From the NCBI RefSeq assembly GCF_035599575.1, contig NZ_CP141179.1:3695001-3759000 (forward strand): DNA of 64,000 nt, written 5' to 3'. Numbering within the stretch: position 1 is the stretch's first letter; each line of letters starts with the position of its first letter. The position numbers were made by a program, and so were the translations under genes. This stretch comes from Roseovarius sp. Pro17. Its GTDB lineage: Bacteria; Pseudomonadota; Alphaproteobacteria; Rhodobacterales; Rhodobacteraceae. Below, in pieces: positions 31,735 through 63,752 of this stretch. The notes beneath the pieces were generated by a model. It did no database searches, was not told the DNA's origin, and saw only the letters and a program-made list of their open reading frames with translations.

Positions 31735-31757
31735 GAGTATTTTTAGAACGGTGAAAG
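31735..31757 (+). repeat. GAGTATTT 3' element, copy A (after regA)
   Basis: GAGTATTT, TTA, GAAC, GG, TGAAAG. Starts 32 bases past the regA stop and runs directly into the hairpin at 31757. It shares the fixed blocks with copies at 42053 and 63752. Confidence 0.7.
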
Positions 31758-31776
31758 GGCAGGGTTGCGCCTGCCC
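31757..31776. terminator. Hairpin between convergent regA and argG
   Basis: GGGCAGG (31757-31763) and CCTGCCC (31770-31776) form a 7-bp stem with a 6-base loop. Only a short T run follows on the minus side (TTTC) and none on the plus side, so termination is plausible but not certain. Confidence 0.6.
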
Positions 31777-31790
31777 AATCCCATTGCGAT

Positions 31791-33017
31791 TTAACCCTTC
31801 AGGCGACGATCCCGTGCCGCCAACAGCTTGAGCCGCAGCGCGTTCAGCTGGATGAAACCTGCCGCGTCCTTCTGATCGTAGGCGCCCGCATCATCCTCAA
31901 ACGTCACATGCGCCTCAGAATAAAGCGAGTGATCGGACCAGCGGCCAACCGTGCGCGCGCTGCCTTTGTAAAGCTTAAGCCGAACGGTGCCGGTGACATG
32001 CGTTTGGCTGGCGTCGATGGCGGCCTGCAGCATCGTGCGCTCGGGTGAGTACCAAAAACCGTTGTAGATCAGCTCGGCGTATTGGGGCATCAGCTGGTCC
32101 TTGAGGTGCATCGCGCCGCGATCCATCGTGATGCTCTCGATCGCGCGGTGCGCCTCCAGCAGAATTGTGCCACCGGGCGTCTCGTAGATGCCGCGCGATT
32201 TCATACCAACAAAGCGACCCTCGACGAGGTCCAGACGGCCCACACCGTGTTTGCCGCCCAGCTCGTTCAGCTTGGTCAGGACGGTTGCGGGGCTCATCGC
32301 CTCGCCATTTACGCTGACAGCATCGCCGCGCTCGAACCCGACTTCGACGAATTCCGCCTCGTTCGGCGCGTCCTCTGGGTTAACGGTGCGCTGATAAACG
32401 TAATCGGGGGCCATTTCCGCCGGATCTTCCAGCACCTTGCCCTCGGACGAGGTATGCAAGAGGTTCGCATCGACGCTGAACGGCGCCTCACCGCGCTTGT
32501 CCTTGGCGATTGGGATCTGATTTTTTTCAGCGAAATCCAGCAGCTTGGTGCGGCTGGTCAGATCCCACTCGCGCCACGGCGCGATAACCTTGATGTCGGG
32601 ATTCAGGGCATATGCCGCCAGTTCGAACCGCACCTGATCATTTCCTTTGCCAGTCGCACCATGCGCGACGGCATCGGCGCCGACCTCTTCTGCGATTTCA
32701 ACCAGACGCTTGGAAATCAGGGGGCGCGCGATGGACGTGCCAAGCAGATACAGACCCTCATAGACGGCGTTGGCGCGGAACATGGGAAACACGAAGTCGC
32801 GCACGAACTCTTCGCGCACATCCTCGATATGGATGTTCTCGGGCCTGATCCCGAGGGCGATCGCTTTTTGCCGCGCCGGCTCCAGCTCTTCGCCCTGGCC
32901 CAGATCGGCGGTAAAGGTTACGACCTCGCAACCATATTCGGTTTGCAGCCATTTCAGGATGATCGAGGTGTCGAGGCCGCCGGAATAGGCCAGCACGACT
33001 TTTTTGGGCGCGGACAT
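31791..33017 (-). CDS. argG: Argininosuccinate synthase ArgG
   Basis: Condenses citrulline and aspartate in arginine synthesis. N-terminal PP-loop AYSGGLDTS (residues 10-18), [13 protein letters not shown] and the family segments TSIARPLI and PWREWDL are present. It has 408 residues; ATG at 33017 follows AAGGAA. Single gene, convergent with regA. argJ lies elsewhere in the window (55877), so the pathway is dispersed. Confidence 0.98.
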
Positions 33018-33145
33018 GAGACATGTTCCTTTGTCAGGGTCGGGCGGGGCTTAGCGGGTTTTGCATTGGCAGGCAAGGCGCTGGGGGTTGCGCGTGGCGG
33101 TGCGCCGTGCTGAATGGCCCGGCTTGAGAAAAAGGATATGTCAGC

Positions 33146-33892
33146 ATGCAGGGCTGGAAGATTTTCGTACATGCGCTGAGCATGGTCGTGCGCAATTGGC
33201 GTGAAGCGCTGCGCATCGCGCTGTTGCCCACCGCCCTCGGGGCCGTGGCCTTTGTGGTGGTCGGGGTTGCGCTGCCACAGTCGCATTCGGCGAGTGGCGA
33301 GGTGGCGGCGCGCGGGCCCATGATCCTAGCCGGGCTGATTTCAGTCCTGATCTGGGTGCTTGCAATGGCCTGGATGCTGGTCAATTGGCACCGCTTCATC
33401 CTGTTGTCCGAATATCCTTCCGGATGGCTGCCGCCGCTGCGCCGGGACGCCATCGGCGCCTATCTGTGGCGGCTGGTGCAAATGATACTGATGGTCATCG
33501 TGGCTTTGATTCCGTTTGTCGTGCTTATGGTGATACTGGGCGGATTGACCGGCGTGTTGCAGATGATCTGGGTCGGCCTGATGGCCTACGGGTTTTACCG
33601 GATCTCACCAATTTTGCCGGCAGCGGCGGTTGGCGAGACGCTGGGGATCCGGGCCGCGTGGGATGCTACCCGGCCCGGTGCAGGGGCCATCGTGATCATC
33701 ATCATCCTCTCGATGGTCGTAACCAAACTGGCCAGCGTGATTGACGTTCTGCTGACAGGATCTATCCCCGTCCTCGGGGCCATCCTGTCGATCATGCTGA
33801 CGGCGGCGCTGGGCCTGCTAAACGCCAGTATCCTCACGACGATCTATGGTTATTACATTGACGGTCGCCCGCTGGGTGACGCAAGTGACTGA
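33146..33892 (+). CDS. Polytopic membrane protein of unknown function
   Basis: 248 residues with about six hydrophobic segments. No family I can name; the segment AMAWMLVNWHRFILLSEYPSGWLPPLRRDAIGAYLWRLVQMI reads like a DUF-type membrane protein found in Roseobacter genomes. It starts at ATG 33146 with AAAGGA upstream. It sits between argG (divergent) and ilvA (same strand, 58 bases downstream) and could be co-transcribed with ilvA. No function inferred. Confidence 0.8.
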   Translation: MQGWKIFVHALSMVVRNWREALRIALLPTALGAVAFVVVGVALPQSHSASGEVAARGPMILAGLISVLIWVLAMAWMLVNWHRFILLSEYPSGWLPPLRRDAIGAYLWRLVQMILMVIVALIPFVVLMVILGGLTGVLQMIWVGLMAYGFYRISPILPAAAVGETLGIRAAWDATRPGAGAIVIIIILSMVVTKLASVIDVLLTGSIPVLGAILSIMLTAALGLLNASILTTIYGYYIDGRPLGDASD

Positions 33893-33950
33893 TCGGGCGC
33901 AGGCGGCGTGCCTCTTGCACAGCCCGTTCGCTTGAGGCAGGCATATCGGC

Positions 33951-35189
33951 ATGAGTGATTTTCAGCAAAAGGCCCAAGCCGCCGAGGCAGCCATGCGCCC
34001 GGTCTTCGACGCAACACCGCTTCAGCGGAATGAGCATCTGTCCGAGCGCTACGACGCTAACATATTGCTCAAGCGGGAGGATCTGACGCCCGTGCGCTCT
34101 TACAAGCTGCGCGGCGCGTTCAATGCCATGCGCAAGGTTCTGGCGCGTGGCGGTGATGCGCCGACATTCGTCTGCGCGAGCGCTGGAAATCACGCGCAGG
34201 GCGTTGCATTCATGTGCCGGCATTTCGGAGTCGAGGGCGTGATTTACATGCCCGTCACGACCCCTCAGCAAAAAATCGGCAAGACACGCATCTTTGGCGG
34301 CGACAACGTGCGGATCGAACTGACGGGCGATTATTTTGACGTGACGCTGGCGGCCGCGCAGGACTATTGCGCGCAAACTGGCGGGCACTTCCTGTCGCCT
34401 TTCGACGACGAGGACGTGATCGAAGGCCAAGCATCGGTCATGGTCGAGATCGAGCGTGATCTGGGCGGGATGCCCGACCATATCGTCATGCCTGTCGGCG
34501 GCGGCGGCCTATCGGCAGGTGTAACCAGCTACATTGGTGATCGCGCGGAAATCACCTTGGTCGAGCCTCAGGGTGGTGCCAGCCTGCAAGCGGCGCTGAT
34601 GGCGGGCGCGCCCGTCCGGCTGGATTACGTGAACAACTTTGCTGACGGCGCGGCAGTCGCGCAGATCGGAGCGCTTACCTTTCGGCGGCTCAGCCATCTG
34701 GACCCCGGTCAGGCTGTGACTGTCAACGAGGATCGCCTTTGCACCACGATGATCGAGATGCTGAACATCGAGGGCATCGTGCTGGAGCCCGCAGGCGCGC
34801 TGGCTGTCGATGCGCTGAAGGACATGAGGAACCGCATCCGCGGCAAGACTGTGGTCTGTGTCACTTCCGGCGGCAATTTTGATTTCGAGCGCCTGCCCGA
34901 GGTAAAGGAGCGCGCGCAACGCCATTCAGGCGTCAAGAAATACTTTATCCTTCGCATGCCCCAGCGCCCTGGTGCGTTGAAGGATTTTCTCAATCTGCTT
35001 GGCCCCGACGATGATATCGCCCGGTTTGAATATCTCAAGAAATCGGCACGTAACTTCGGCTCGGTCCTGATCGGGATAGAGACCAGCCGAGAAGAGAATT
35101 TCGTGCGCCTGCTGGCCGCCTTCACCGCCGCCGGTTTTGATTATCGTGACATTACGGACGACCGGGTGCTGGCCGAATTCCTCATCTGA
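33951..35189 (+). CDS. ilvA: Threonine ammonia-lyase IlvA
   Basis: PLP enzyme that converts threonine to 2-oxobutanoate, first step of isoleucine synthesis. The PLP-lysine motif RSYKLRGAFNA, SAGNHAQGVA and the phosphate-binding glycine loop VGGGGLSAG are present. A single ACT-like region follows residue 330 (YFILRMPQRPGALKDFLNLLGPDDDIARFEY), which makes it the shorter, Bacillus-like form rather than the E. coli two-domain form. It has 412 residues and converges with the Hpt gene. Confidence 0.94.
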   Translation: MSDFQQKAQAAEAAMRPVFDATPLQRNEHLSERYDANILLKREDLTPVRSYKLRGAFNAMRKVLARGGDAPTFVCASAGNHAQGVAFMCRHFGVEGVIYMPVTTPQQKIGKTRIFGGDNVRIELTGDYFDVTLAAAQDYCAQTGGHFLSPFDDEDVIEGQASVMVEIERDLGGMPDHIVMPVGGGGLSAGVTSYIGDRAEITLVEPQGGASLQAALMAGAPVRLDYVNNFADGAAVAQIGALTFRRLSHLDPGQAVTVNEDRLCTTMIEMLNIEGIVLEPAGALAVDALKDMRNRIRGKTVVCVTSGGNFDFERLPEVKERAQRHSGVKKYFILRMPQRPGALKDFLNLLGPDDDIARFEYLKKSARNFGSVLIGIETSREENFVRLLAAFTAAGFDYRDITDDRVLAEFLI

Positions 35190-35199
35190 GCGCTGCACG

Positions 35200-35532
35200 T
35201 CACGATTTATCCAGTCGGGACAATCCCGCCATGAACTCGGTTTTCGAGTCATCAAAGCTGGCCAATGTCGCGGGCAGGTCCACGCGCTGGGCCTGACCGG
35301 CTGCCGCTGCGCTCTCGCCGTTTTGGCACAAGGTTGAAAACGCGCGAAATCCTAGGTTCAGCGCGCTACCCTTCAGGAAATGCAGCCGCGATTCCAGTGC
35401 ATCCTCAGCGCATCCCTCACGCAGAAGCGCGATTTCGCCCTCCACCTCTTCCAAGAACAGCTCGACCACGTCGCCGAAATCCTCGGCACCGATTTCATCG
35501 CGAAGCTCGGCGATCCTTTTCCAGTCGATCAT
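35200..35532 (-). CDS. Hpt-domain phosphotransfer protein
   Basis: A 110-residue four-helix Hpt domain. The phospho-acceptor is His51 in HFLKGSALNLGF, matching the HxxKGSxxxLG pattern. It has no kinase or receiver, so it must work as a relay. It is divergent from the receiver-PP2C gene at 35678, which makes that protein its obvious partner; this is inference. ATG at 35532 has AGGAGG. Stop is 10 bases from the ilvA stop. Confidence 0.9.
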   Translation of the reverse strand: MIDWKRIAELRDEIGAEDFGDVVELFLEEVEGEIALLREGCAEDALESRLHFLKGSALNLGFRAFSTLCQNGESAAAAGQAQRVDLPATLASFDDSKTEFMAGLSRLDKS

Positions 35533-35568
35533 GCATCCTCCTTCCGGTTGCGTTGACCGTGAATGAAA

Positions 35569-35587
35569 GCCCTTAAGGGCGCGTTAC
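35569..35587. promoter_or_regulatory. Palindrome and near-CtrA site between hpt and receiver-PP2C genes
   Basis: GCCCTTAAGGGC (35569-35580) is a perfect 12-bp palindrome. It overlaps TTAA (35573-35576), seven bases, TTAC (35584-35587), one base short of the CtrA TTAA-N7-TTAA pattern. It lies 36 bases upstream of the hpt ATG and 90 upstream of the PP2C start. A role as an operator is inferred. Confidence 0.45.
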
Positions 35588-35677
35588 CGACCAACATTTT
35601 GTGCAGTCTGGATCGCGTTCACTGACTGTTAATCCGGCCCGGCTAAGACTGGGGTATTGAACGCAAAGGGAAAAATT

Positions 35678-36970
35678 TTGTCCCATCTGACCGATCCACA
35701 TATTGAGTCATCAATCGACTCAGCTAATCGGCCCGCGCGGGCGATTCAGCGCGTTCTGGTGGTCGATGACAGCCGGCTGCAACGACGCATTCTGACCGCA
35801 TCCCTGAAAAAATGGGGTTTTGCAGTGACGGAGGCCGAATCAGGTGATCAGGCGCTCGAAATTTGCCGCGACACGCCTCCGGATCTGGTGCTGAGCGACT
35901 GGATGATGCCGGGTATGTCAGGTGTTGAATTTTGCGCTGAATTCAGACGCATGTCGCGCGATAACTACGGCTATTTTATCCTGCTTACGTCGAAGTCCGA
36001 CAAGGCCGAGATTGCCCATGGCCTCGATGTTGGCGCCGATGATTTCCTGACCAAACCGGTCGATCCCGGCGAATTGCGCGCGCGTATAACCGCAGGAGAG
36101 CGCATTCTCGAGATGGAGCGCGAACTGACCGAAAAGAATCGCCTCGTGAATTCCACTTTGGACAAGCTGCAGACGCTCTATGCATCGCTCGACGCGGATT
36201 TGATCGAGGCCAAGAAGTTGCAGCAATCGCTGGTCAGAGACAGGCACCGCGACTATGGCACGGCCGAAGTGTCGATGCTGCTGCGTTCGTCCGGGCATGT
36301 GGGTGGCGATCTGGTCGGGATGTTTCCCGTCAGCGATACGCGGATCGGGCTTTACGGTATTGACGTGTCGGGACACGGAGTTAGCTCGGCTCTGATGACG
36401 GCGCGGCTGGCCGGATACCTTTCGGGCGCCGCGCCCGAACAGAACGTCGCGCTAGAGCGGCTGCCGGACGGCGGCTATGCGCCGCGCCGACCGGGACAGA
36501 CCATCGCTGCGCTGAACGATCTTTTCCTCAGCGAGCTCGAAACCGAGCATTATTTTACCCTGCTGCTGGCTGATGTCGATCTGGCCACCGGGCGCGTCGT
36601 GATGGCGCAAGCGGGGCATCCCTATCCGGCGGTCCAAAGGGCAGATGGCAGCGTTGAGATGGTCGGCGAGGGCGGACTGCCCGTGGGGCTGATTCCCGGC
36701 GCGGAATATCAAGAGTTCGAGGTGCAGTTGCGGCCGGGGGACCGGCTGATGATCCATTCGGACGGAGTGACGGAATGTGCGGCACCCGACGGTACGCTGT
36801 TGGACGACGAGGGACTCGCGCGCATTTTGCAAGGGTTGCGCGGCGCGCGCGCCATGTCCTGCCTCGAATCACTGATCTGGAAGCTGGCCGATTTCGCCGG
36901 CGACGATACTTTCGCGGACGATGTCTCGGCCATCCTGCTCGAGATCAAGCCAATCCGGCCCAGCGGCTGA
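35678..36970 (+). CDS. Receiver-PP2C (RsbU-type) phosphatase response regulator
   Basis: 430 residues. N-terminal receiver with VLVVDDS and phospho-Asp74 (VLSDWMMPGMSG); a coiled linker (about 140-190, EMERELTEKNRLVNSTLDKLQ); and a C-terminal PP2C/SpoIIE phosphatase domain (GGDLVGMF, GIDVSGHGVSSALMTARL, AQAGHPYP, HSDGVTE). Such proteins dephosphorylate anti-sigma antagonists. The architecture matches RbaY of Rhodobacter capsulatus, which with RbaV/RbaW affects gene-transfer-agent production; that link is by memory of architecture. The start is TTG at 35678, six bases after AAGGGA; an upstream TTG at 35657 lacks a site. Confidence 0.9.
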   Translation: MSHLTDPHIESSIDSANRPARAIQRVLVVDDSRLQRRILTASLKKWGFAVTEAESGDQALEICRDTPPDLVLSDWMMPGMSGVEFCAEFRRMSRDNYGYFILLTSKSDKAEIAHGLDVGADDFLTKPVDPGELRARITAGERILEMERELTEKNRLVNSTLDKLQTLYASLDADLIEAKKLQQSLVRDRHRDYGTAEVSMLLRSSGHVGGDLVGMFPVSDTRIGLYGIDVSGHGVSSALMTARLAGYLSGAAPEQNVALERLPDGGYAPRRPGQTIAALNDLFLSELETEHYFTLLLADVDLATGRVVMAQAGHPYPAVQRADGSVEMVGEGGLPVGLIPGAEYQEFEVQLRPGDRLMIHSDGVTECAAPDGTLLDDEGLARILQGLRGARAMSCLESLIWKLADFAGDDTFADDVSAILLEIKPIRPSG

Positions 36971-37388
36971 CAAACATGCGATCCCCCTCATTGCCCAGCT
37001 CGGCGGCGGCGACGCGGGGATCAACGATCAGCGGCGTATGGCCCGCTTCGGTCGGCGCGCAGATCGGGCGTACCGGCTGCGCGATGTAGATTGTGCACAG
37101 CTTTTCGGCCCACATGTCATATTCGGGCATATAGACGAAGCGGCGAAATGCACCCAAACGGCGCGGCGCGGCGATGGTCCAGCCGGTTTCCTCGATCACC
37201 TCGCGATAGAGCGCGCGCAAAGGTGATTCGCCCGGATCGATCCCGCCGCCCGGCAGCTGCAATTCAGGCTGCGGTTCGTGCTGCAATGTCACCAGTAGGC
37301 CACCCGTCGCCGGCAGAATCGCATAGACGCCATGGCGCATCTGATAGGATTGTCCCCGGTGCGGCGGCTGGCCTACGCGTCTAATCAT
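36945..37388 (-). CDS. NUDIX hydrolase
   Basis: 147 residues with a good Nudix box GGGIDPGESPLRALYREVIEETGW (GX5EX7REVxEETG). Substrate is not clear; the fold does not show the MutT or ADP-ribose pyrophosphatase extra motifs. Its 3' end overlaps the receiver-PP2C gene by 26 bases on the opposite strand. Divergent from hslO by 82 bases. Confidence 0.9.
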   Translation of the reverse strand: MIRRVGQPPHRGQSYQMRHGVYAILPATGGLLVTLQHEPQPELQLPGGGIDPGESPLRALYREVIEETGWTIAAPRRLGAFRRFVYMPEYDMWAEKLCTIYIAQPVRPICAPTEAGHTPLIVDPRVAAAELGNEGDRMFVSRWAGLA

Positions 37389-37470
37389 CTGGCTTGCTCC
37401 TCTTGGACGCCGGGTTGCCCCTGCCTATATCTTCGCGATATGCCAATCTCCGGCACATAAGGAAACCCCA

Positions 37471-38481
37471 ATGAACTTTGGTGAAAAAATCGCTTGGGAC
37501 GATACGGTCCTGCCGTTCCAGCTGGATAAATCAGACATTCGGGGACGCGTAGCGCGTTTGGACGGCGTGCTGGGCGGCATCCTCAAGCAGCACGACTACC
37601 CCTTGGTCGTCGAAGCGTTGGTAGCCGAGATGGCCTTGTTGACGGCCCTGATTGGCCAGACGATCAAGCTGCGTTGGAAGCTGTCCCTGCAAGTGCAATC
37701 GAATGGCCCGGTGCGTATGATCGCCACGGACTACTATGGCCCACAAAAGGACGGTGAGCCCGCGCGCATTCGTGCCTATGCCAGCTATGACGCCGAGCGT
37801 CTGACCGATGCCAGCCCCTTTGAGCAGGTCGGCGAGGGGTATTTCGCCATCATGATCGACCAGGGCAAGGGCACCGCGCCCTATCAGGGTATCACCCCGC
37901 TGGCCGGTGGTAGCCTGCGCGCGTGCGCCGAGGCGTATTTTGCCCAGTCCGAACAGATACCGACGCGATTTGCGCTGAATTTCGGTCGGTCTACCGAAGG
38001 GGATACGGGCGAGCATTGGCGCGCTGGCGGCATTATGCTGCAACATATGCCCAAGGCCTCCCCCTTTGCAGCCACGCCAGAAGGCGGCAGTGGTGAGGGT
38101 GGCCTTTTGCAGCCCGACGATGTCGCGCCCGACGGCGAAGAAGGCGAGAACTGGAACCGCGCGAACATCCTGCTGGATACTGTTGACGCGCTCGAGCTGA
38201 TTGGGCCAAGCGTCGCGCCGACCGACCTGCTCTTGCGGCTGTTTCATGAGGAAGGACCGCGCGTATACGACGCACAGCCTATCCGTTTCGGCTGCACCTG
38301 TTCGAAGGATCGCGTGCGCCAGAGCCTGTCGATCTACTCGGCCAAGGATATCGCGACGATGACCACGGATGATGGTCGCGTCACGGCGGATTGCCAGTTC
38401 TGCGGCTCGCATTACGATCTGGACCCGGCCACGCTGGGTTTCGACTCTGATCAGGGCGCAGGCGGCGACGACACGGCATGA
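37471..38481 (+). CDS. hslO: Redox-regulated chaperone Hsp33 (HslO)
   Basis: Holdase switched on by oxidation of zinc-bound cysteines. The C-terminal switch is FGCTCSKDR..ADCQFCGSHYDLDP (CxC and CxxC). It has 336 residues. The ATG at 37471 follows AAGGAAACCCC. First gene of hslO-NUDIX-cca-rlmD, all with 4-bp ATGA overlaps. Confidence 0.97.
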   Translation: MNFGEKIAWDDTVLPFQLDKSDIRGRVARLDGVLGGILKQHDYPLVVEALVAEMALLTALIGQTIKLRWKLSLQVQSNGPVRMIATDYYGPQKDGEPARIRAYASYDAERLTDASPFEQVGEGYFAIMIDQGKGTAPYQGITPLAGGSLRACAEAYFAQSEQIPTRFALNFGRSTEGDTGEHWRAGGIMLQHMPKASPFAATPEGGSGEGGLLQPDDVAPDGEEGENWNRANILLDTVDALELIGPSVAPTDLLLRLFHEEGPRVYDAQPIRFGCTCSKDRVRQSLSIYSAKDIATMTTDDGRVTADCQFCGSHYDLDPATLGFDSDQGAGGDDTA

Positions 38482-39083
38482 GCGCGACGGATCCCATCGC
38501 GCAACTCGCCAAGGCGCTGGGCAGGACCGGCGCGGCGACGTCGGATTTCGACCTGAACCCCGGCACGATACTGCCCGAGGGGCGCAAACTGCGTCCTGCG
38601 GGGGTGCTGGTGCCCCTGATGATGACGCCCGGCGGCGCCCGGGTGATGCTGACGCAGCGCTCGTCGGTGCTAAAGCAGCACCCTGGCCAGATCGCGTTTC
38701 CAGGGGGTAAGCAGGATGAGGGTGACGCGGATGTCACTGCCGCCGCCCTGCGCGAAGCGCAAGAAGAGATCGGACTGGACCCCGCCAATGTCGAAGTGCT
38801 TGGCCATCTGCCTATGCACGAGACGGTGACGGGCTACGCGGTGACGCCGGTTGTGGGGCGCGTCCTTACGCCCTTCTCGCCCATTCCTGAGGCGGGCGAG
38901 GTGGCCGAAGTGTTCGATGTGCCGCTGGAACATGTGCTGATGCGCAGCCACTACCGGGTCGAGGAGCGGTACTGGCGCGGCACAATGCGGCGCTACTACA
39001 CCGTGCCGTTCGGCTCCTACTACATCTGGGGCGCCACCGCGCGGATGCTGCGATCGATGGCCGAGGCGGCGGAAGGCCCATGA
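38478..39083 (+). CDS. CoA-pyrophosphatase NUDIX hydrolase
   Basis: 201 residues. Nudix box GGKQDEGDADVTAAALREAQEEIGL, preceded by a segment (LTQRSSVLKQHPGQIAFPGG) typical of the CoA/NudL/Nudt7 group (LxxRS..LxxHxGQIaFPGG). It would hydrolyse CoA or its derivatives. ATG at 38478 within the hslO stop; next gene starts within its stop. Confidence 0.92.
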   Translation: MSATDPIAQLAKALGRTGAATSDFDLNPGTILPEGRKLRPAGVLVPLMMTPGGARVMLTQRSSVLKQHPGQIAFPGGKQDEGDADVTAAALREAQEEIGLDPANVEVLGHLPMHETVTGYAVTPVVGRVLTPFSPIPEAGEVAEVFDVPLEHVLMRSHYRVEERYWRGTMRRYYTVPFGSYYIWGATARMLRSMAEAAEGP

Positions 39084-41527: not shown

Positions 41528-42025
41528 ATGAAAGTACTAAAGTTTCTGGCAATCGCGCTGTTGGTTGTGGGTCTGTCGGCCTGCGGTTCGAAGTTCAAGA
41601 CCTACAAGGGTCCTGAGGTCACACACGTCGTGCTGGTGAAATCCGAGCGCAAGATGTATCTGCTGCACCACGACAAGGTGCTTGAAGATTACGACTTTGA
41701 TCTGGGATTCATGCCCGCCGGTCACAAGTCCGAGGAAGGCGACGGGCGCACGCCCGAGGGCACTTACCTGATTGACCGGCGCAATCCGAACAGCAAGTTC
41801 CATCTGTCGATTGGCATTTCCTACCCCAACGCCTTTGATCGGGCGCAGGCACATTTGCGCGAAAAGAGCCCGGGTGGCGATATCTTTATCCATGGTCAGC
41901 CGAATGGCTTTAAGGGCAAGAACGGGCGGGATTGGACCGCCGGATGCATTGCGGTCACCAACAAGGAGATCGAATGGATCTATGCCATGGTGAGGGACGG
42001 AACACCCATCACGCTCTATCCGTGA
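41528..42025 (+). CDS. L,D-transpeptidase lipoprotein (YkuD family)
   Basis: 165 residues. Lipobox LSAC with Cys19, then the YkuD core: TPEGTYLIDRRN, and the catalytic motif HGQPN..DWTAGCIAV with His122 and Cys140. Catalyses 3-3 peptidoglycan cross-links or attaches proteins. The start is the ATG at 41528; in-frame sequence further upstream is the end of rlmD in another frame. A copy of the GAGTATTT element and a strong terminator follow. Confidence 0.9.
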   Translation: MKVLKFLAIALLVVGLSACGSKFKTYKGPEVTHVVLVKSERKMYLLHHDKVLEDYDFDLGFMPAGHKSEEGDGRTPEGTYLIDRRNPNSKFHLSIGISYPNAFDRAQAHLREKSPGGDIFIHGQPNGFKGKNGRDWTAGCIAVTNKEIEWIYAMVRDGTPITLYP

Positions 42026-42052: not shown

Positions 42053-42075
42053 GAGTATTTACGGAACAATGAAAG
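42053..42075 (+). repeat. GAGTATTT 3' element, copy B (after the L,D-transpeptidase)
   Basis: GAGTATTT, ACG, GAAC, AA, TGAAAG. Starts 27 bases past the stop and its AAAG is the foot of the terminator stem at 42072-42108. Compare copies A and C. Confidence 0.75.
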
Positions 42076-42111
42076 CGCCGGGGCGGAGCATATCCATCCC
42101 GGCGCTTTTTC
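42071..42111. terminator. Terminator between the L,D-transpeptidase and CAP-lipoprotein genes
   Basis: AAAGCGCCGGG (42072-42082) and CCCGGCGCTTT (42098-42108) form an 11-bp stem with a 15-base loop and a T run of five. The AAAG end gives a poly-U-like run on the minus strand too, so it may be used in both directions. Confidence 0.92.
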
Positions 42112-55391: not shown

Positions 55392-55413
55392 TCTACGCCA
55401 AGACTGGAATTCG

Positions 55414-55442
55414 AAAGGGGCGCTCTAATGAGCGCCCCTTTT
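55414..55442 (+). terminator. Terminator after infB
   Basis: AAAGGGGCGCT (55414-55424) pairs with AGCGCCCCTTT (55431-55441) in an 11-bp stem with a 6-base loop and a T run of four. It also works on paper on the minus strand for mutT, which ends 40 bases on. Confidence 0.95.
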
Positions 55443-55481
55443 GCTTTGCATGATGCGTTTTTTGAGCCGGATAAAACGGCT

Positions 55482-55880
55482 CTATAGCCAATCCCGCAGG
55501 ATCGGGATCAGCGGCACGTCCGCAGGCGGCATTGGATAATCCCTCAGATCAGTGGCGCGCACCCATTTGAGTGCCTGCCCTTCGCGCCCCTGCACTATCC
55601 CGTCCCACTTGCGGCAGGCGAAAAGCGGCATCAGCAGGTGGAAATCATCATAGGAATGGCTGGCGAAGGTCAGCGGTGCGAGGCAGCTGGCCCATGTGTC
55701 GATGCCCAGTTCCTCCTGCAATTCGCGGATCAGCGCGGCCTCGGGCGTTTCGCCCTGCTCGACCTTGCCGCCGGGAAATTCCCAAAGGCCCGCCATCGAC
55801 TTGCCCTCGGGGCGCTGCGCGAGCAGCACACGTCCGTCCACGTCAATCAGCGCGACAGCCGAGACGACGACAGTTTTCAC
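55482..55880 (-). CDS. mutT: MutT-type 8-oxo-dGTP pyrophosphatase
   Basis: 132 residues with the Nudix box GGKVEQGETPEAALIRELQEELGI and the MutT pattern LLAQRPEGKSMAGLWEFPGG. It cleans oxidised GTP and dGTP from the pool. The GTG at 55880 forms a GTGA overlap with the argJ stop and is preferred to an in-frame codon at 55934. Part of ppiC-argJ-mutT on the minus strand. Confidence 0.93.
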   Translation of the reverse strand: MKTVVVSAVALIDVDGRVLLAQRPEGKSMAGLWEFPGGKVEQGETPEAALIRELQEELGIDTWASCLAPLTFASHSYDDFHLLMPLFACRKWDGIVQGREGQALKWVRATDLRDYPMPPADVPLIPILRDWL

Positions 55881-57106
55881 GAGCGATAGTCGGCGTTGAT
55901 GTCGATATACCCATGCGTCAGATCGCAGGTCCATACGCGCGCGGTGCCGCCGCCAAGGCCCAGATCGACATGGATGATCAGTTCTTGCCGCTTCATGTAG
56001 GCGGCCGCCTCATCCTCGCAATAATCAGGGCTGACCCAGCCGTTTTCGGCGACTTTGATATCACCGAACCAGATTGCCAGCGTGTCGCGATCTGCACGCG
56101 CGCCGGATTTTCCGATGGCCATTACGACACGGCCCCAGTTCGGGTCCTCGCCCGCTATGGCGGTTTTCACCAAGGGCGAATTGGCAATGGATTTCGCATG
56201 TTTGTGCGCGTCGTCGTCACTGGCAGCACCGGTGACCGAGATTTCGACCAGCTTGGTCGCGCCCTCGCCGTCGCGCACCACCTGCTGAGCGAGGTCCAGC
56301 ATGACGCGGCGAAGCCCCTCCATAAAGCCGATGCTATGTTCGGTTATGGAGACACCTGAAGCGCCGGTCGCGCCTACCAGCAGCGTGTCGGAGGTCGAGG
56401 TATCGCTATCGACGGTGATGCAGTTGAATGTGGTACGGTTCAGCGCCGAAACCATGGATTGCAGCACCGGCTGCGGCACCTTTGCGTCGGTAAAGATGTA
56501 GACCAGCATCGTGCCCATATCAGGCTCGATCATGCCCGAACCCTTGGCGATGCCGGCGATACGCACGGTCTGGCCGTCAACGTCCACTTCGGTCGCCGAG
56601 CCTTTGGGAAAAGTGTCGGTCGTCATGATCGCGCGGGCGGCATCGGCGATGCCGCCGGTCGTCAGGGCCTCTTTCAGATCGGCCAGCTTGGCGACGATGC
56701 GCTCATGCTTCATCGGCTCGCCAATCACACCGGTCGAGGACGAAAAGACGCGGTGTTCCGGCAGACCAAGCACCTCCGCGACGCCTGACGTGACTGCGCG
56801 CACCGACTCAACACCGTGACGCCCGGTAAAGGCGTTGGAATTGCCGGAATTTACGAGGAACGCCGCGCCCTCATCGCCGCTTCGCGCAATCTTGGCCTGA
56901 CAATCCAGCACCGGTGCGGACCGAGTAGCCGAGCGGGTGAACACCCCTGCCACCGTGCTGCCGGGCGCCAGATGCGCCAGCATTACGTCAGTGCGCCCTG
57001 TATAGCGCACACCGGCGGCGATACTGGCAAAGCGCACCCCCTCGATCACAGGCAGATCAGGAAAATCGGCAGGTGCGAGCGGCGAAACAGAGGTGTTCTT
57101 GGCCAT
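55877..57106 (-). CDS. argJ: Bifunctional ornithine acetyltransferase / N-acetylglutamate synthase ArgJ
   Basis: 409 residues. The self-cleavage site is around AIMTTDTFPK, where Thr is the new N-terminus of the beta chain. Recycles acetyl in arginine synthesis. Family segments GVRYTGRTDVMLAHLAPGSTVAGVFTRS and VNSGNSNAFTG are present. It lies 6 bases after ppiC. Confidence 0.97.
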   Translation of the reverse strand: MAKNTSVSPLAPADFPDLPVIEGVRFASIAAGVRYTGRTDVMLAHLAPGSTVAGVFTRSATRSAPVLDCQAKIARSGDEGAAFLVNSGNSNAFTGRHGVESVRAVTSGVAEVLGLPEHRVFSSSTGVIGEPMKHERIVAKLADLKEALTTGGIADAARAIMTTDTFPKGSATEVDVDGQTVRIAGIAKGSGMIEPDMGTMLVYIFTDAKVPQPVLQSMVSALNRTTFNCITVDSDTSTSDTLLVGATGASGVSITEHSIGFMEGLRRVMLDLAQQVVRDGEGATKLVEISVTGAASDDDAHKHAKSIANSPLVKTAIAGEDPNWGRVVMAIGKSGARADRDTLAIWFGDIKVAENGWVSPDYCEDEAAAYMKRQELIIHVDLGLGGGTARVWTCDLTHGYIDINADYRS

Positions 57107-57112
57107 GCGCGT

Positions 57113-57982
57113 TTACTCTTCCAGAAGGTCGAGCTGGTTCAACACAGCCGGGTCCATCGCATCGCCAGCAGTGCGATCTACATCGCCCAGCTCTTGCAGA
57201 CGGGTGATTTCCTTTTCTATAGCCTTCTGGCGCAGCGCCTCTTCGATCTGGGGGCGGACCTCGTCCAGTTTGGGTGCGTCCTTAATGCGGGTCTCTTCCA
57301 GTTTTATCACGTGCCAGCCGAAATCCGTCTGGACCGGATCGCTGACGCTACCGGCCTCCATTCCTTCGACGGCCATCTGAAACGGCTCGACCATCATGCC
57401 CTCGCTGAACCAGCCAAGCGCGCCGCCCGACGGGCCGGAGGGGCCGGTGGAATGCTCTTGCGCCAGTGCGGCGAAATCGCCGCCGTCTTTCAGCTCATCG
57501 ACCAGCTTTTGAGCCTCTTCTTCGGTCTCGACCAGAATATGGGCGGCCTTGTATTCCGAGACATCCTCGCCGTTCAGGAAGTTTTCATCGAAATAGCTCT
57601 GGACGGCCTCATCGGTGACTGCAGTCTCGGCGATGCGGGCCATTTCTTCGGTGGCGATCAGCGCGCGGCGCTCATTTTCTAACGCTAGTGCGGCACGCTT
57701 GGACAGGTCGTCCTTGCTGGCATCCGCCAGTAGCGTCTGCTGGATCAACTGGTCTAAGATACCGGGGTACAAAACGTCGGCAGGCACCTGCTGAAATTGC
57801 TCAGGCAGACCGGCGCGCAGAGTCAGCATGTGACCCAGCGTGATGTCGGTCCCACCCACTGTGGCGACGACGGTGTCGGCATTGACTGCGCTCTCGGTGT
57901 CATCTGCGGCGACGACCGGCGCGGCGCCGAGTATCCCCATCAGCATGGCACAGGTGGCAATCGGTTTGAGACGGTCGAGCAT
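57113..57982 (-). CDS. Periplasmic parvulin-type peptidyl-prolyl isomerase
   Basis: 289 residues. A signal peptide (MLDRLKPIATCAMLMGILGAAPVVAADD), a SurA-like N-domain and a parvulin domain (YKAAHILVETEEEAQKLVDELKDGGDFAALAQEHSTGPSGPSGGALGWFSEGMM..FGWHVIKLEE). Assists periplasmic folding. The start is ATG 57982 with AAGGAA; codons in frame above it overlap the start of secA on the other strand. It is divergent from secA. Confidence 0.93.
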   Translation of the reverse strand: MLDRLKPIATCAMLMGILGAAPVVAADDTESAVNADTVVATVGGTDITLGHMLTLRAGLPEQFQQVPADVLYPGILDQLIQQTLLADASKDDLSKRAALALENERRALIATEEMARIAETAVTDEAVQSYFDENFLNGEDVSEYKAAHILVETEEEAQKLVDELKDGGDFAALAQEHSTGPSGPSGGALGWFSEGMMVEPFQMAVEGMEAGSVSDPVQTDFGWHVIKLEETRIKDAPKLDEVRPQIEEALRQKAIEKEITRLQELGDVDRTAGDAMDPAVLNQLDLLEE

Positions 57983-58034
57983 ATGGCGTTCCTTCACAGT
58001 TTGCGGCGGTTGGCGGCGCACAGGGCGCGCGACG

Positions 58035-58063
58035 TTGACACTAAGCAAGCGGACCCTTACATC
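58035..58063 (+). promoter_or_regulatory. Promoter of secA
   Basis: TTGACA (58035-58040), 17 bases, TACATC (58058-58063), 113 bases ahead of the secA ATG. A perfect -35 and a half-matching -10. The long leader of about 105 bases could allow SecA autoregulation; no structure was resolved. Confidence 0.5.
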
Positions 58064-58175
58064 GCCTTTGAATACAGGCACATCCCGCTGATACCCCGCC
58101 CGACATAGGGTGACAATCGAAACGGGGCAAGGCATTGCCGAACACAACAGATCACAAGACGGGAACGTATTGAAC

Positions 58176-60896
58176 ATGCTGGGTATTGGAACGGTCGCCC
58201 GTAAGGTTTTCGGCACTGCGAACGACCGAAAGGTCAAGGCGACGCGCCCGCTGGTCGACAAGATCAACGCGCTGGAGCCCGAGATCAAGGCGCTGGATGA
58301 TGCCGGGCTGATTGCCAAGACGGATGAGCTGCGCGGACGTTTGCAAAAGGGCGAGTCGCTGGACGACCTTCTGCCTGAGGCCTTCGCCAATTGTCGCGAG
58401 GCCGCGCGCCGCGCGCTGGGCCTGCGCGCCTTTGATGTGCAGCTGATGGGCGGCATTTTCATGCATCAGGGCAATATTGCCGAAATGAAGACAGGCGAGG
58501 GCAAGACGCTGGTCGCCACCTTCCCGGCATATCTTAACGCGCTGGGCGGTAAGGGCGTGCATGTCGTCACCGTCAACGACTACCTTGCCAAGCGTGACTC
58601 GGAGTGGATGAGCGCCGTTTTCAGTGCGCTGGGCATGACCACGGGCGTCATCTATCCGCAGCAGGCCGAGGACGAGAAACAGCGCGCCTATGCCTGTGAT
58701 GTGACCTATGCCACCAACAACGAGCTGGGATTTGATTATCTGCGCGACAACATGAAGTCCGAGCTGACCCAGATGCACCAGCGTGGCCATAACTTTGCCA
58801 TCGTGGACGAGGTCGACAGCATCCTGATCGACGAGGCGCGGACGCCGTTGATCATCTCGGGGCCGGCGCAGGATCGCAGCGATCTGTATCTGGCGATCGA
58901 CAAACTGATTCCCGAGCTGGCCGAAGAGCATTACAAGATCGACGAAAAGGCGCGCAGCTGCACCTTTACCGATGAGGGCAACGAGTTTCTCGAAACCCTT
59001 CTGGTCGAGCGTGGCGTGCTGCCCGAGGATCAATCGCTCTACGATCCTGAAAGCACGACAATCGTGCATCACGTTAATCAGGGTCTGCGCGCGCACAAGT
59101 TGTTCCACAAGGACAAGGATTACATCGTCCGCGACGGCGAGGTCGTGCTGATCGACGAATTCACTGGCCGCATGATGGCGGGGCGGCGCCTGTCCGATGG
59201 CCTACATCAGGCCATCGAGGCCAAGGAAGGCGCCGATATCCAGCCCGAGAACGTGACGCTCGCGCAGGTGACGTTTCAGAACTATTTCCGCCTCTATGAA
59301 AAACTGTCCGGCATGACCGGCACCGCGTTGACCGAGGCGGACGAGTTTGCCGAAATTTATGGTCTTGGCGTGGTCGCTGTGCCGACAAACCAGCCCATAG
59401 CGCGCGTTGACAAGGACGACGCGGTGTTCCGCACCACGGCGGAAAAGTACAAGGCTGTGGTCGAAGAGATCAAAGAGGCCAGCGTCAAGGGCCAGCCCAC
59501 GCTGGTCGGCACCACGTCTATCGAGAAATCGGAAACGATCAGCCAGCTACTGACGGATGCGGGCATCGACCACAACGTCCTGAACGCGCGCCAGCACGAA
59601 AAAGAGGCGCAGATCGTCGGTGACGCGGGCAAGTTGGGCGCAGTGACCATCGCCACCAACATGGCCGGGCGTGGCACCGACATCAAACTCGGTGGCAATA
59701 TCGACATGAAGATCATGGAGGCGATCGCCGCCGATCCCGATGGCGATCCTGCCGAAATTCGCGCCCGTATCGAAGAGGGGCACAAGACCGAGGAGCAGGC
59801 CGTCAAGGATGCTGGCGGTCTCTTTGTCCTTGCCACTGAACGCCACGAGAGTCGCCGGATCGACAACCAGCTGCGCGGCCGCTCGGGGCGTCAGGGCGAT
59901 CCGGGGCAGTCTTCCTTCTTCTTGTCGCTGGACGATGACCTGATGCGCATCTTCGGATCGGAGCGCCTGGAAAAGGTACTGTCCGGCCTCGGCATGAAAG
60001 AGGACGAGGCGATCATTCACCCATGGGTGAACAAATCGCTCGAGCGCGCGCAGGCCAAGGTCGAAGGCCGTAACTTTGACATGCGCAAGCAGCTGCTGAA
60101 ATTCGACGACGTGATGAACGAGCAGCGCAAGGTGATCTTTAAGCAGCGCCTGGATATCATGCGCGCCGCCGACCTGAGTGACATCGTCAAGGACATGCGC
60201 GGCGAGGTGATCGACGATCTGGTCGACCAATTCATGCCGCCCAAGACCTACGCCGATCAGTGGGACATGGAGGGCCTCCATACCGCCATCGCCGAGCAGT
60301 TGAACATGGATCTGCCGGTGCAGGCATGGGCCGATGAAGAAGGCGTCGACGACGAGGACATCAGCGAGCGCATTGAAAAGCACGCGAACGAGATGATGGC
60401 GAAAAAGGCCGTCGCCTTTGGTCCGGGCAACATGCGGCTGATCGAAAAGCAGCTGCTGCTGCAGACCATCGACAGCAAATGGCGCGATCACCTTCTGATG
60501 CTGGAGCATCTGCGCAGCGTCGTCGGTTTTCGTGGCTATGCACAGCGCGATCCGCTGAACGAGTACAAGAACGAGGCCTTCGCCCTGTTTGAGACGATGC
60601 TGGACGGCCTGCGTCAGGACGTTACCCAAAAGTTGGGTCAGGTCCAGCCGGTGTCAGAAACCGATCAGCAGCGCATGATGCAGCAAATGATGGACGAGCG
60701 CGCCGCGCTTCAGGCCCAGACCGACGCTGCGATCACGCGCGAGGATGGCAAGCAGTCCGCCGCCACTCCGTCCGAGGCACCGCTGCAAGGCTTTGACGAA
60801 AACGATTCGTCGACATGGGGCAATCCGGGCCGCAACACGGCCTGCCCCTGCGGATCCGGTGCTAAGTTCAAGCATTGCCACGGACGCCTCGCCTGA
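58176..60896 (+). CDS. secA: Preprotein translocase ATPase SecA
   Basis: 906 residues. DEAD motor with [27 protein letters not shown], and a C-terminal SEC-C zinc site ([17 protein letters not shown]) that binds SecB, whose gene is at 12020. ATG at 58176 gives [13 protein letters not shown]; longer starts at 58170 (TTG) and 58110 lack a good Shine-Dalgarno. A perfect hairpin follows at 60909. Confidence 0.98.
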
Positions 60897-60908
60897 CGAT
60901 CTGAACGC

Positions 60909-60942
60909 GTCATTCGGGCCGTCATCATGCGGCCCGAATGAC
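60909..60942. terminator. Perfect hairpin after secA
   Basis: GTCATTCGGGCCG (60909-60921) and CGGCCCGAATGAC (60930-60942) form a perfect 13-bp stem with an 8-base loop and no T run. It may be a stop for exonucleases or a Rho-assisted end rather than a classic terminator. Confidence 0.6.
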
Positions 60943-61025
60943 TCCACATCTGCGCCACATGGCCGCCCTTTTCGCTCGCTAGATATACTGCACAACCAAA
61001 TTTTTTAGGTGTGTGGAGTTATCAG

Positions 61026-62051
61026 ATGCGAAAGATCAAAATGATCGCGGTGGGATGCGGAACGCTGGCGCTGGCGCTGGGCGCCGGTCATTTCATGCAG
61101 TCCCGCACGGTAACTGACCCGGTAGCGCAGGACGAAAGCACTCAGGTGCCCGCCCCCAGCGCGGCACTCAGCGATGCCGCCACTGAAACGCTGGAACTGT
61201 CGTCGATCACACTCATCTCCGCCGTTCCGTCGCCGCCCAGTGCAGCGCTGATGCCTGCGCTGCTGCCGCAAACGCCCGACACGCCTCTGATTCGAGAGGC
61301 GACATTGCGCGATTCGACGACCAAAACGCTGACCGATGCGCTGCCCTTGGAAGAGCCCGCGCCCAGCCTTGCCTGTAACTACACGCTCACCGCCGACGCG
61401 GCGCCCGCTGCGATGGTGTCCCTGTCGCTGGATGCGCCCTGTGCGACCAGCGAGCGGTTTACGATGCATCACAACGGCATGATGTTCACCGGGGTGACCG
61501 ATGATGACGGCCATGCCAGCATGTTGGTACCCGCCCTCGCGCTGAAAGCGTCGTTCATCGCCGCGTTTGCAAATGGCGAAGGCGCCGTCGCAAATGCCGA
61601 GGTCGATAGTGTAAATTATTATCAGCGCGTCGCAGTGCAGTGGCAGGGCGATACAGGCATGCAGCTGCATGCGCTGGAATTTGGTGCGGGATATGACGAT
61701 GATGGCCATGTCTGGTCGGGTGCACCGCGCGATGTTGCGGCGGCGTCAGATGGCAATCGCGGTTTTCTCACGCGGCTCGGCGCCGCCGATCAGCCCAAGG
61801 CACTGATGGCCGAAATATATACCTTTCCCAGCCTGCTGGCGGGCCGCGACGGCGACGTCAACCTGCTTGTTGAGGCCGAGGTGACGCCGCTCAATTGCAA
61901 CCGCGATATCGATGCACAGGCACTGCAAATGCAGCCCGGCGGCAGCCTGCGCGTGCAGGACGTGACGCTGATGATGCCTGGATGTGGTGCGGTAGGTGAC
62001 TTTCTGGTGTTGAAAAACCTGCTGAATGACCTCACCATCGTGCGCAACTGA
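61026..62051 (+). CDS. Exported protein of unknown function downstream of secA
   Basis: 341 residues. Hydrophobic N-terminus (MIAVGCGTLALALGAG) that looks like a signal or anchor, an Ala/Pro-rich low-complexity stretch (about 30-110) and a globular C-terminal part with four cysteines (CNYT, APCA, LNCNRD, PGCGA) that could make two disulfides. No family recognised. ATG at 61026. It lies 130 bases after secA, past a hairpin, and 23 bases before the PstS/OmpA gene, so the two probably share a transcript. Confidence 0.8.
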   Translation: MRKIKMIAVGCGTLALALGAGHFMQSRTVTDPVAQDESTQVPAPSAALSDAATETLELSSITLISAVPSPPSAALMPALLPQTPDTPLIREATLRDSTTKTLTDALPLEEPAPSLACNYTLTADAAPAAMVSLSLDAPCATSERFTMHHNGMMFTGVTDDDGHASMLVPALALKASFIAAFANGEGAVANAEVDSVNYYQRVAVQWQGDTGMQLHALEFGAGYDDDGHVWSGAPRDVAAASDGNRGFLTRLGAADQPKALMAEIYTFPSLLAGRDGDVNLLVEAEVTPLNCNRDIDAQALQMQPGGSLRVQDVTLMMPGCGAVGDFLVLKNLLNDLTIVRN

Positions 62052-62074
62052 CACCTGCGCTCAAGGGGATACTG

Positions 62075-63634
62075 ATGGCACAGCTACGTGCGGCGATTTT
62101 CGCCGCACTTTTCCCATGTCTCGCCACCCTGCCCGCTGCCGCGCAGGACGTGACGCTGACCTCGCGCGATGGCGAGGTGACGATTACCGGCGATCTGCAG
62201 GGTTTCGATGGCGAGTTCTACCGCGTCGATACCATTTACGGTGAGCTGACAGTCGACGGCTCGGGCGTGCTGTGCGAGGGACCGGGCTGCCCCAACCTGA
62301 ACGCATATGTCGCCGAGGCGACCCTGTCGGGCGCGCCAACCATCGGCCGCGTGTTGATGCCCGCGCTAATCGAGGCATTCGCACTGCGCCAAGGGCTGGA
62401 GCTTTCGCGCGACAACATATCCGACATCATTTTCGCCTACACCCTTTCCGATCCAGCTACACATGAGGCGCGCGGGCGCTTTCATGTGCGCCTGACCAAT
62501 ACCGATGAGGGCTTTGCCGATCTGCTCGCGGGCGAGGCCGACATGGCCATGTCACTGCGCGAGGTCACTCGCAAGGAGGCGATACGTGGCCGCGAAGTGG
62601 GCCTTGGCGATCTGCGCGACGCCCGACGCAGCCGCGTGTTGGCGCTCGATGCGCTGGTGCCGCTGGTATCGGCGGGCAATCCGGTGACGACGATCACCAC
62701 ACCCGAACTGGCACAGGTGCTGGCTGGTGAGATTACCGATTGGGTGCAACTCGGCGGCGCCGACGCGCCTATCGCGGTGCATCTGCATGACCCCACCACC
62801 GGCCTCGGCCAATCAACCGAAAGGCGGATGCTACAAGGCGGGGCCACGGAATTCGTCGCCGGCGCCATACATCACCTGGATGGTGACGCGCTGTCGCAGG
62901 CTGTTGCGCAGGATCCATTCTCGCTGGGCATTGGCAGCCGCTCGGAAAAGGGCCTGACCTTTGAGCTGGCCCTGACCGGAGCTTGCGGATTCGCGATGCA
63001 GGCCACCCGTCGCGCGGTCAAGACTGAGGATTACCCCCTTACCGCGCCAATGTTCTTATACCTACCCGCGCGCCGCCTACCCAAGCTGATGCGCGAATTC
63101 CTCGCGTTTACCCGCGAGCCAGCAGCGCAATTGGTGATTCGCCGCGCCGGATTTGTCGACCAACTGCCCGAAGAGATCGCGATCAACGATCAGGGCGATC
63201 GCTTTGCCAACGCCGTGCTGCGCGCCGGAGAGGAAATCACGCTCAGCGATCTTCAACGTATGACGCGCGTGCTTAGCCCGCTGAAACGTCTGACGACAAC
63301 CTTTCGATTCGAACCCGGCTCGGCCCGGCTGGACGCGCAGTCACGCTCAAATGTTGAGAGTCTGGCGCGGGCATTGGAAAGCGGTTTCTACGACGGGCGA
63401 CAGTTAGTCTTTGTCGGTTTTTCAGATGGCGAGGGCCCGGCGAACGCCAACCGCACCATATCCTTGCGCCGCGCAAAGGCCGTGCAGGACGCGGTCATTC
63501 GAACTGCCGAAACCGCGCAACTAGACCGGCTCAAGATGGATATAGAGGCTTTCGGCGAAGCGATGCCCATGGCCTGCGATGACAGCGAATGGGGCCGCCG
63601 CGCCAATCGCCGGGTCGAGATCTGGATGAAATAG
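62075..63634 (+). CDS. PstS-like substrate-binding domain fused to OmpA C-terminal domain
   Basis: 519 residues. Signal peptide (MAQLRAAIFAALFPCLATLPAAAQ), a periplasmic PBP-like domain (about 75-370; the run LPARRLPKLMREFLAFTREPAAQLVIRRAGFVDQ looks like PstS), then an OmpA peptidoglycan-binding domain (TTFRFEPGSARLDAQSRSNVESLARAL; FVGFSDGEGPANANRTISLRRAKAVQDAV; RRANRRVEIWMK). It probably holds a phosphate- or small-anion-sensing domain to the cell wall. ATG at 62075. Seen in other alphaproteobacteria; role unknown. Confidence 0.88.
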   Translation: MAQLRAAIFAALFPCLATLPAAAQDVTLTSRDGEVTITGDLQGFDGEFYRVDTIYGELTVDGSGVLCEGPGCPNLNAYVAEATLSGAPTIGRVLMPALIEAFALRQGLELSRDNISDIIFAYTLSDPATHEARGRFHVRLTNTDEGFADLLAGEADMAMSLREVTRKEAIRGREVGLGDLRDARRSRVLALDALVPLVSAGNPVTTITTPELAQVLAGEITDWVQLGGADAPIAVHLHDPTTGLGQSTERRMLQGGATEFVAGAIHHLDGDALSQAVAQDPFSLGIGSRSEKGLTFELALTGACGFAMQATRRAVKTEDYPLTAPMFLYLPARRLPKLMREFLAFTREPAAQLVIRRAGFVDQLPEEIAINDQGDRFANAVLRAGEEITLSDLQRMTRVLSPLKRLTTTFRFEPGSARLDAQSRSNVESLARALESGFYDGRQLVFVGFSDGEGPANANRTISLRRAKAVQDAVIRTAETAQLDRLKMDIEAFGEAMPMACDDSEWGRRANRRVEIWMK

Positions 63635-63685
63635 CGCCCAGCGCCTGATCTGCGGGCTTTCAATGTGAACCGCACCGCAGGATTG

Positions 63686-63707
63686 GAGTATCTTTACGAA
63701 GGGAATG
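63686..63707 (+). repeat. GAGTATTT 3' element, degenerate copy D (after the PstS/OmpA gene)
   Basis: GAGTATCTTTACGAAGGGAATG: it keeps GAGTAT and a GAA-like part but lacks the exact GAAC and TGAAAG blocks. Same position relative to the upstream stop (51 bases) as copies A and B, so it may be a decayed copy. Confidence 0.35.
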
Positions 63708-63729
63708 CCTGAGGACCGCGCTTAGACAA

Positions 63730-63752
63730 CTTTCATTGTTCGACAAATACTC
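63730..63752 (-). repeat. GAGTATTT 3' element, copy C (after the edge ORF)
   Basis: On the minus strand: GAGTATTT, GTC, GAAC, AA, TGAAAG. It starts 20 bases past the stop of the edge ORF. A small hairpin, GCCGGA (63755-63760) with TCCGGC (63767-63772), lies between the stop and the element. Confidence 0.75.

Follow-up and report, generated by a model that had tools for sequence, protein, structure and literature searches.

The described systems closest to the element reported here are repetitive extragenic palindromic (REP) sequences, including REP doublets forming hairpins (REPINs) and bacterial interspersed mosaic elements (BIMEs), and the DNA uptake sequences (DUS) of the Neisseriaceae. 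As characterized in two reports (PMC3116915, PMC3733652), REP sequences are short, extragenic and multi-copy, fall into genome-specific types, and may come as short-gap inverted doublets or with GC hairpins. Their CGTC-tagged forms are reported to lack a partner transposase; among the species concerned are alpha-proteobacteria, for instance Bradyrhizobium and Caulobacter (PMC3733652, whose main text does not name Rhodobacter, Roseobacter, Paracoccus or Ruegeria). Neisseriaceae DUS combine a constant block with species-specific spelling and occur in both orientations (PMC3630211). Here we describe a 23-nucleotide (nt) element, GAGTATTT-N3-GAAC-N2-TGAAAG, found in a 64,000-nt stretch of Roseovarius sp. 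Pro17 (hereafter the window; contig NZ_CP141179.1, positions 3,695,001 to 3,759,000).

In the REP traits listed above, the element is like REP and BIME sequences, the inverted doublets being formed by some of its copies and the GC hairpins being optional. It differs from them in that its core is asymmetric, its consensus lacks GTAG, and a free N3 lies inside the fixed core; moreover, many carriers have no match to the REP-associated tyrosine transposase (RAYT), and the core is kept at some orthologous sites. With the CGTC-tagged REPs it shares the state of a REP-like repeat without a dedicated transposase, but its consensus contains no CGTC and is not a palindrome. Compared with DUS, it has far fewer copies and is virtually absent from genes. 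Like intrinsic terminators, it has neighboring hairpins and lies near a stop codon at some copies, whereas its core is sequence-specific and strand-neutral and most copies lack a strong hairpin. Judged from literature listings, whose coverage leaves out most subscription papers, no paper names such an element. We tentatively favor the reading that the core is recognized, as double-stranded DNA, by a putative, lineage-variable trans-acting factor. The element would then be a sign of an unrecognized chromosome-binding factor, and otherwise a REP-like class without the usual transposase; either reading affects the annotation of spacers and 3' ends.

A sharply bordered 23-nt core is repeated throughout the genome

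An earlier note on this DNA had pointed to three occurrences of the 23-nt pattern. All three are exact, and no further match with up to two mismatches was found in the 64,000 nt of the window, in which none would be expected (100 shuffles). The genome to which the window belongs (G000, 4.24 Mb) holds 35 exact copies, of which 17 lie on the forward and 18 on the reverse strand, and none of the reversed control. Mismatch counts are bimodal, with 35, 15, 4 and 5 copies at 0, 1, 2 and 3 mismatches (59 in total, against 1 for the reversed control), and the 54 copies with at most two mismatches were taken as the working set. Chance repetition was rejected by the shuffles and the reversed controls. 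Position frequencies delimit a core of 23 nt with abrupt borders, in which positions 9 to 11 are largely free, the third of them being mostly G or A, and positions 16 and 17 are partly free. Information mostly exceeds 1.4 bits at the fixed positions and is at most 0.7 outside the 23-mer, and the asymmetric consensus has no dyad.

Left of the core, alternative modules are found. Some are T-rich sequence, others a hairpin, either the small CGCC-TNC-GGCG or one made of a G-run and a C-run; the flanking hairpins are optional and of several unrelated kinds. Along the chromosome, the gaps between copies are somewhat more clustered than random (the coefficient of variation is 1.24 vs 0.98, and 2.9% of random draws reached the former), and an even spacing was rejected on this ground.

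Other candidates were discarded as well. GAGTATTT by itself is not the element, since of its 19 occurrences in 464 kb of G000, 8 belong to copies of the element and 11 have no right half or a poor match to it; in the same sense, GAACNNTGAAAG is joined to GAGTATTT at all six of its occurrences. A phage-borne repeat was rejected because the exact pattern occurs in only two stretches of the viral collection, for which the class-B pattern described below is too simple to be informative. With Rfam 15, the window gave no match at the gathering threshold, and in 17 element loci searched at E <= 1, the element itself drew only miRNA models that scored well short of their cut-offs. The remaining sequence of these loci yielded a tRNA, PYLIS_3 just below its cut-off in locus L186, and two weak matches.

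The element is very largely extragenic and neutral to strand

Genes were called with a simple caller of our own, trained on G000 and also applied to its genus mate G003, and the background shares of spacer types were derived from G000 alone (a 464-kb sample with 150 codirectional, 53 divergent and 35 convergent spacers). Although spacers make up about 13% of the sample, 53 of the 54 copies are intergenic, and the sole genic copy has two mismatches. The copies found in codirectional spacers divide evenly, 17 being sense and 17 antisense to the flanking genes; 15 are convergent, 3 divergent, 1 lies at the edge of an analyzed stretch and 1 is the genic copy just mentioned. Divergent spacers are thus avoided (3 of 52 copies vs 22% expected, p ~ 0.002) and convergent spacers favored (15 of 52 vs 15%, p ~ 0.009). 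The G003 set, 49 copies with at most two mismatches from 40 stretches of a genome that holds 75 at up to one mismatch, comprises 18 sense, 11 antisense, 13 convergent and 6 divergent copies and 1 inside a gene.

The copies represent one shared element that occurs far beyond chance, beside unrelated genes and in nonrandom places, in line with the earlier note, but the RNA processing, termination or small-RNA signal that the note suggested is not supported by the placement. That the copies are always on the coding strand proved an accident of three copies: the sense-to-antisense ratio is 17:17 in G000 and 35:28 in G000 and G003 together (p = 0.45), and the first window copy is equally antisense to the converging argG. 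Sense copies lie no nearer to the stop than to the next start (medians of 38 nt behind the one and 41 nt before the other), while the antisense copies of G000 follow a stop closely (median 18 nt, vs 59 nt to the other gene). Either orientation is seen between same-strand genes, as at iscR/iscS, era/recO, Dinoroseobacter shibae rfbA and Ruegeria pomeroyi nirJ. The names iscR, iscS, era, recO, nuoN and birA are those we presume from recognizing the sequences by eye, without a family search. Because the element is strand-neutral and occurs either way between same-strand genes, a strand-specific RNA 3' signal is disfavored.

Another candidate is a bidirectional terminator or 3'-end stabilizer, in which the AT-rich core would either provide the tract to hairpins on both its sides or act as a 3' signal in RNA. 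The convergent excess and the closeness of antisense copies to the stop speak for it, as do the hairpins next to TGAAAG, which are seen at sites 1 and 2 of the window and, in relatives, at the argG site. Left hairpins also stand out beside the sense copies of G000 and G003 and the convergent copies of G003, where mean z ranges from -1.4 to -1.6; antisense copies give about -0.5. However, the convergent copies of G000 show no such excess (z -0.2), and its 3 divergent copies have strong left hairpins (z -2.4). A strong hairpin right of TGAAAG (<= -12 kcal/mol and z < -1.5 in the 40 nt to its right) accompanies only 14 of the 54 copies in G000 and 9 of the 49 in G003; judged from this share of hairpins and the 17:17 orientation, the copies do not each have a hairpin with a U-tract in the direction of transcription. 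A U-tract would, moreover, need neither some 18 fixed bases nor a genome-specific spelling. Head-to-head doublets with gaps of 9 to 18 nt (7 among the 49 copies of G003, 1 among the 54 of G000) fold into hairpins of -22 to -31 kcal/mol, and, with matching N3 letters in just 1 of 8, their stem carries a bulge. No Rfam match above cut-off was obtained at the element. Since copies lie either way between same-strand genes and, in the nuoN-birA spacer, between the terminator-like hairpin of nuoN and birA, a terminator role makes little sense, and we consider it improbable.

The core persists in place at some orthologous sites

Among 27 locus pairs of G000 and G003, we counted the 10 in which both flanks match in order, and excluded one-flank, reversed and doublet-partner pairs. 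They place ten copies at nine sites; a rough estimate puts the expectation at about 1.2 sites. In these copies, 24 of the 50 free bases are identical, and 175 of the 180 constrained bases, a figure that is partly so by construction, because the copies were picked by pattern and their apparent conservation is inflated; the co-location is not affected. The adjoining 20-nt flanks have 75 of 200 (left) and 64 of 200 (right) bases identical. Orientation agrees at all six shared sites without a doublet. At two others, G003 has a head-to-head doublet, so that one member agrees by construction, and one site carries a back-to-back pair in both genomes.

Behind era, a recognizable element is present in 15 of 31 genomes (our own and 30 chosen), always antisense, with 1 degraded copy and 15 genomes without any; in the latter, judged by eye, the next gene mostly abuts or overlaps. 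The right halves at this site differ by genome, and G184 has an additional degraded sense copy. Between nuoN and birA, a clear element is found in 11 of 29 readable genomes, 4 having a degraded one and 14 none, while 2 more are cut off; in several genomes, nuoN is followed first by its terminator-like hairpin and then by the element. In the same spacer (L018, ~1490-1535, minus strand), the element includes an ATG (GAACA-ATG-AAA-G) that shares the reading frame of birA, whose translation may start there in several genomes; our gene caller set the start further in.

At argG, 6 of 30 loci keep the response-regulator neighbor; the element is present in G000, G375, G377 and G029, degraded in G360 and absent from G361. 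The copies of G375, G377 and G029 are dialect forms, that of G377 with one change in the left block, and a hairpin comparable by eye to GGGCAGG/CCTGCCC is seen in these three genomes and G360. Genus mates without the response-regulator neighbor (L243, L251, L254-L257, L260, L261) have other repeat-like sequence downstream of argG, with GTACG/CGTAC and TTTTGTAC-rich motifs.

The back-to-back pair lies at an ABC ATPase/permease site, and its members are exactly 32 nt apart in G000, G003, G006 and G023 with only 11 to 20 of the 32 gap bases identical, an absence of indels that could be coincidence. A similar pair with a 42-nt gap occurs at another place in G235. Four genomes share a conserved block, GGCTGGAGAGCCGATGRCCGTGAACGRTGAAAGTYC, with a GC-rich inverted repeat behind it (L016 ~1370-1415, minus strand; L197; L423; L078), and in three of them, G000, G003 and G006, the block was seen between the ABC ATPase and permease genes. 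It carries a right half of the element without GAGTATTT and may be a small structured RNA or a short open reading frame (ORF); Rfam gave no match to it in loci L016, L197 and L423.

Right halves are spelled in genome-specific dialects

With up to one mismatch, the core occurs in 25 of 36 genus genomes and in 1 of 24 other-family genomes, there as a single one-mismatch match. A broader pattern is present on both strands in 66 of 296 family genomes, 46 of them with at least 5 copies and the richest with 131; the reversed control gave single matches in 6 genomes. The core is a member of a superfamily: GCCTCCGGCGG before the left half of the core, a combination of left module and GRRTATTT, is present in 207 of the 296 with zero control matches. 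The earlier remark that such strings may be common in Rhodobacteraceae was right. Outside the family, where the GAGTATTT pattern alone was searched, its broad form has 1 or 2 matches in 13 of 189 genomes and the control has matches in 7. A search that matched 14 records gave named relatives on plasmids of D. shibae (E 9e-6), Leisingera, R. pomeroyi and, weakly, Paracoccus (E 0.06 to 0.2). Related copies are thus available in the laboratory strains D. shibae DFL 12 and R. pomeroyi DSS-3; the D. shibae copy lies antisense between rfbA (annotated) and another same-strand gene, the R. pomeroyi copy sense between nirJ (annotated) and a nitrite reductase gene.

The middle positions are spelled per genome, giving "dialects" (GAACAA, GAATAA, GCAAGA, GAAAGA, GACCAA, GCCAAA, GAGCAA). 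Entropy at positions 13 to 17 within genomes is 0.51 bit vs 2.19 with shuffled genome labels (141 copies, 12 genomes; lowest of 2000 shuffles 1.97), and N3 stays diverse at 2.72 vs 2.96 bits (99 copies, 8 of the 12 genomes), with a slight genome bias, 2.72 being close to the lowest shuffle of 2.68. These values rest on hand-copied strings, the first places per genome among the matches listed, from the 12 genomes with at least 7 listed copies, 9 others for which just one copy was listed being excluded. In further genomes, a related left block, GGATATTT, is frequent and has right halves of its own. A second class, B (GAGTATTT-N5-AAGAWGAAG), is found in 40 of 60 genus genomes and not in G000; genus mates such as G022, G009 and G004 have class B without class A, and others, among them G026 and G028, have neither.

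A recognition site in duplex DNA is the reading we tentatively prefer

Fixed blocks around a free spacer, a genome-wide spelling and persistence in place would be expected of a DNA site with a drifting reader, and orientation neutrality, fixed spacing and dialects suggest that a protein may bind the element. In the DNA-site reading, the 23-bp core, repeated dozens of times per genome in spacers, would be read by a putative trans-acting factor whose preference drifts with the lineage. Contact common to all lineages would be made at GAGTATTT (or GGATATTT), N3 would act as a spacer of largely free sequence, and the lineage-specific block would be the right half (GAACRATGAAAG, GCAAGATGAAG, CCAAGAAGAAG and others). 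We propose that the element occurs in either orientation because the duplex, not the transcript, would be recognized; coding sequence is avoided, and so are the divergent spacers, which bear promoters. Its role would then be chromosomal (topology or organization, as proposed for REP/BIME sites) instead of RNA processing. A more ambitious version, which we regard as rather unlikely, is a Rhodobacteraceae-specific, chromosome-wide "address" system, in which a putative factor with an asymmetric specificity of about 20 bp would co-evolve with dozens of extragenic sites, each lineage respelling the right halves in place and sometimes using two dialects per genome. The dialects offer a direct handle on the co-evolution of a DNA site and its reader across many sites.

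Several observations weigh against the DNA-site reading, in addition to the choice of shared copies by pattern, the possible coincidence of the 32-nt gap and the slight genome bias of N3. The avoidance of divergent spacers is less clear in G003 (6 of 48), and only 10 of the 54 G000 copies were matched to an orthologous G003 site, 49 G003 copies having been looked at. No binding or covarying protein is known or was found, PF01797 being the only family tested. Since some genomes hold two right-half classes (G010 has 66 class-A copies at up to one mismatch and 38 class-B copies), a single factor would be insufficient. One left module can replace another at a given site, a trait also of mosaic repeats; the head-to-head doublets resemble mobile repeats; and so does a tandem array of four class-B copies with a 92-bp period (G016:C1:310029-310326).

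Doublets, left-module exchange, coexisting classes and the tandem array are what would be expected of a repeat family. The main rival is accordingly a REP/REPIN/MITE-like repeat (MITE, miniature inverted-repeat transposable element), whose unit of optional hairpin and core, sometimes as an inverted doublet, would have been spread by a transposase in trans and would now be mostly fixed, with no host function needed. We consider this possible, if somewhat doubtful. It would also account for the almost strictly extragenic placement, the folding of doublets into long hairpins, the genome-specific sequence types, and a superfamily confined to one family, with a background level outside it for the one pattern searched there. 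A palindromic unit was not found, though, and matches to RAYT (PF01797, E <= 0.001), present in 12 of 60 genus genomes, do not follow the element: they occur in the carriers G001, G010, G011, G020 and G027, of which G001, G010 and G020 are copy-rich, and are lacking in carriers, several of them copy-rich, that include G000, G003, G005, G006 and G029. A RAYT/REP link was rejected for want of a consistent association with copy-bearing genomes. With many carriers devoid of RAYT and no palindrome, a classical REP is argued against; the core is, besides, kept at orthologous sites while the flanks are scrambled, and at one and the same site the right half varies from genome to genome.

Species dialects around a constant block, in both orientations, also recall the Neisseriaceae DUS (PMC3630211), and the element might in principle tag own DNA for transformation. 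With no more than 131 copies in any of the 296 genomes instead of thousands, and 1 of 54 copies in a gene, such a role is argued against by low copy number and scarcity in genes, and we hold it to be very improbable.

The three sites of the window

The features of the window sites are collected in Table 1. The distances past the stop agree with the 20 to 32 bases given in the earlier note, and the junction of TGAAAG with a GC hairpin is confirmed for sites 1 and 2. A degenerate copy reported after the PstS/OmpA gene (GGAGTATCTTTACGAAGG, ~63685) is background, with fewer than 10 of the 18 fixed bases in every register. The visible part of the edge ORF upstream of copy 3 is a DUF3179 match.

Table 1. 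Element copies and adjoining features in the window
Feature	Position	Strand	Description
Core copy 1	31735..31757	+	GAGTATTT-TTA-GAAC-GG-TGAAAG; 32 nt past response-regulator stop
Response-regulator gene	31151-31702		Adjoins core copy 1; named regA in the earlier note
argG	31791-33017		Converges on core copy 1, which is antisense to it
GC hairpin at copy 1	31757..31776		GGGCAGG/CCTGCCC; abuts TGAAAG; precedes CTTTCACC on argG strand
Core copy 2	42053..42075	+	GAGTATTT-ACG-GAAC-AA-TGAAAG; 27 nt past L,D-transpeptidase stop
L,D-transpeptidase (YkuD) gene	41528-42025		Ends upstream of core copy 2
Terminator-like hairpin at copy 2	42075..42111		GCGCCGGG/CCCGGCGC, then T-run
Core copy 3	63730..63752	-	GAGTATTT-GTC-GAAC-AA-TGAAAG; 20 nt past edge-ORF stop
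Left module of copy 3	63753..63766	-	GCCGCGTCCGGCGG, one form of the superfamily's CCTCCGGCGG hairpin

In G003, motifs of the type AAAATTC..GAATTTTC were seen upstream of some copies (L181, L185, L191).

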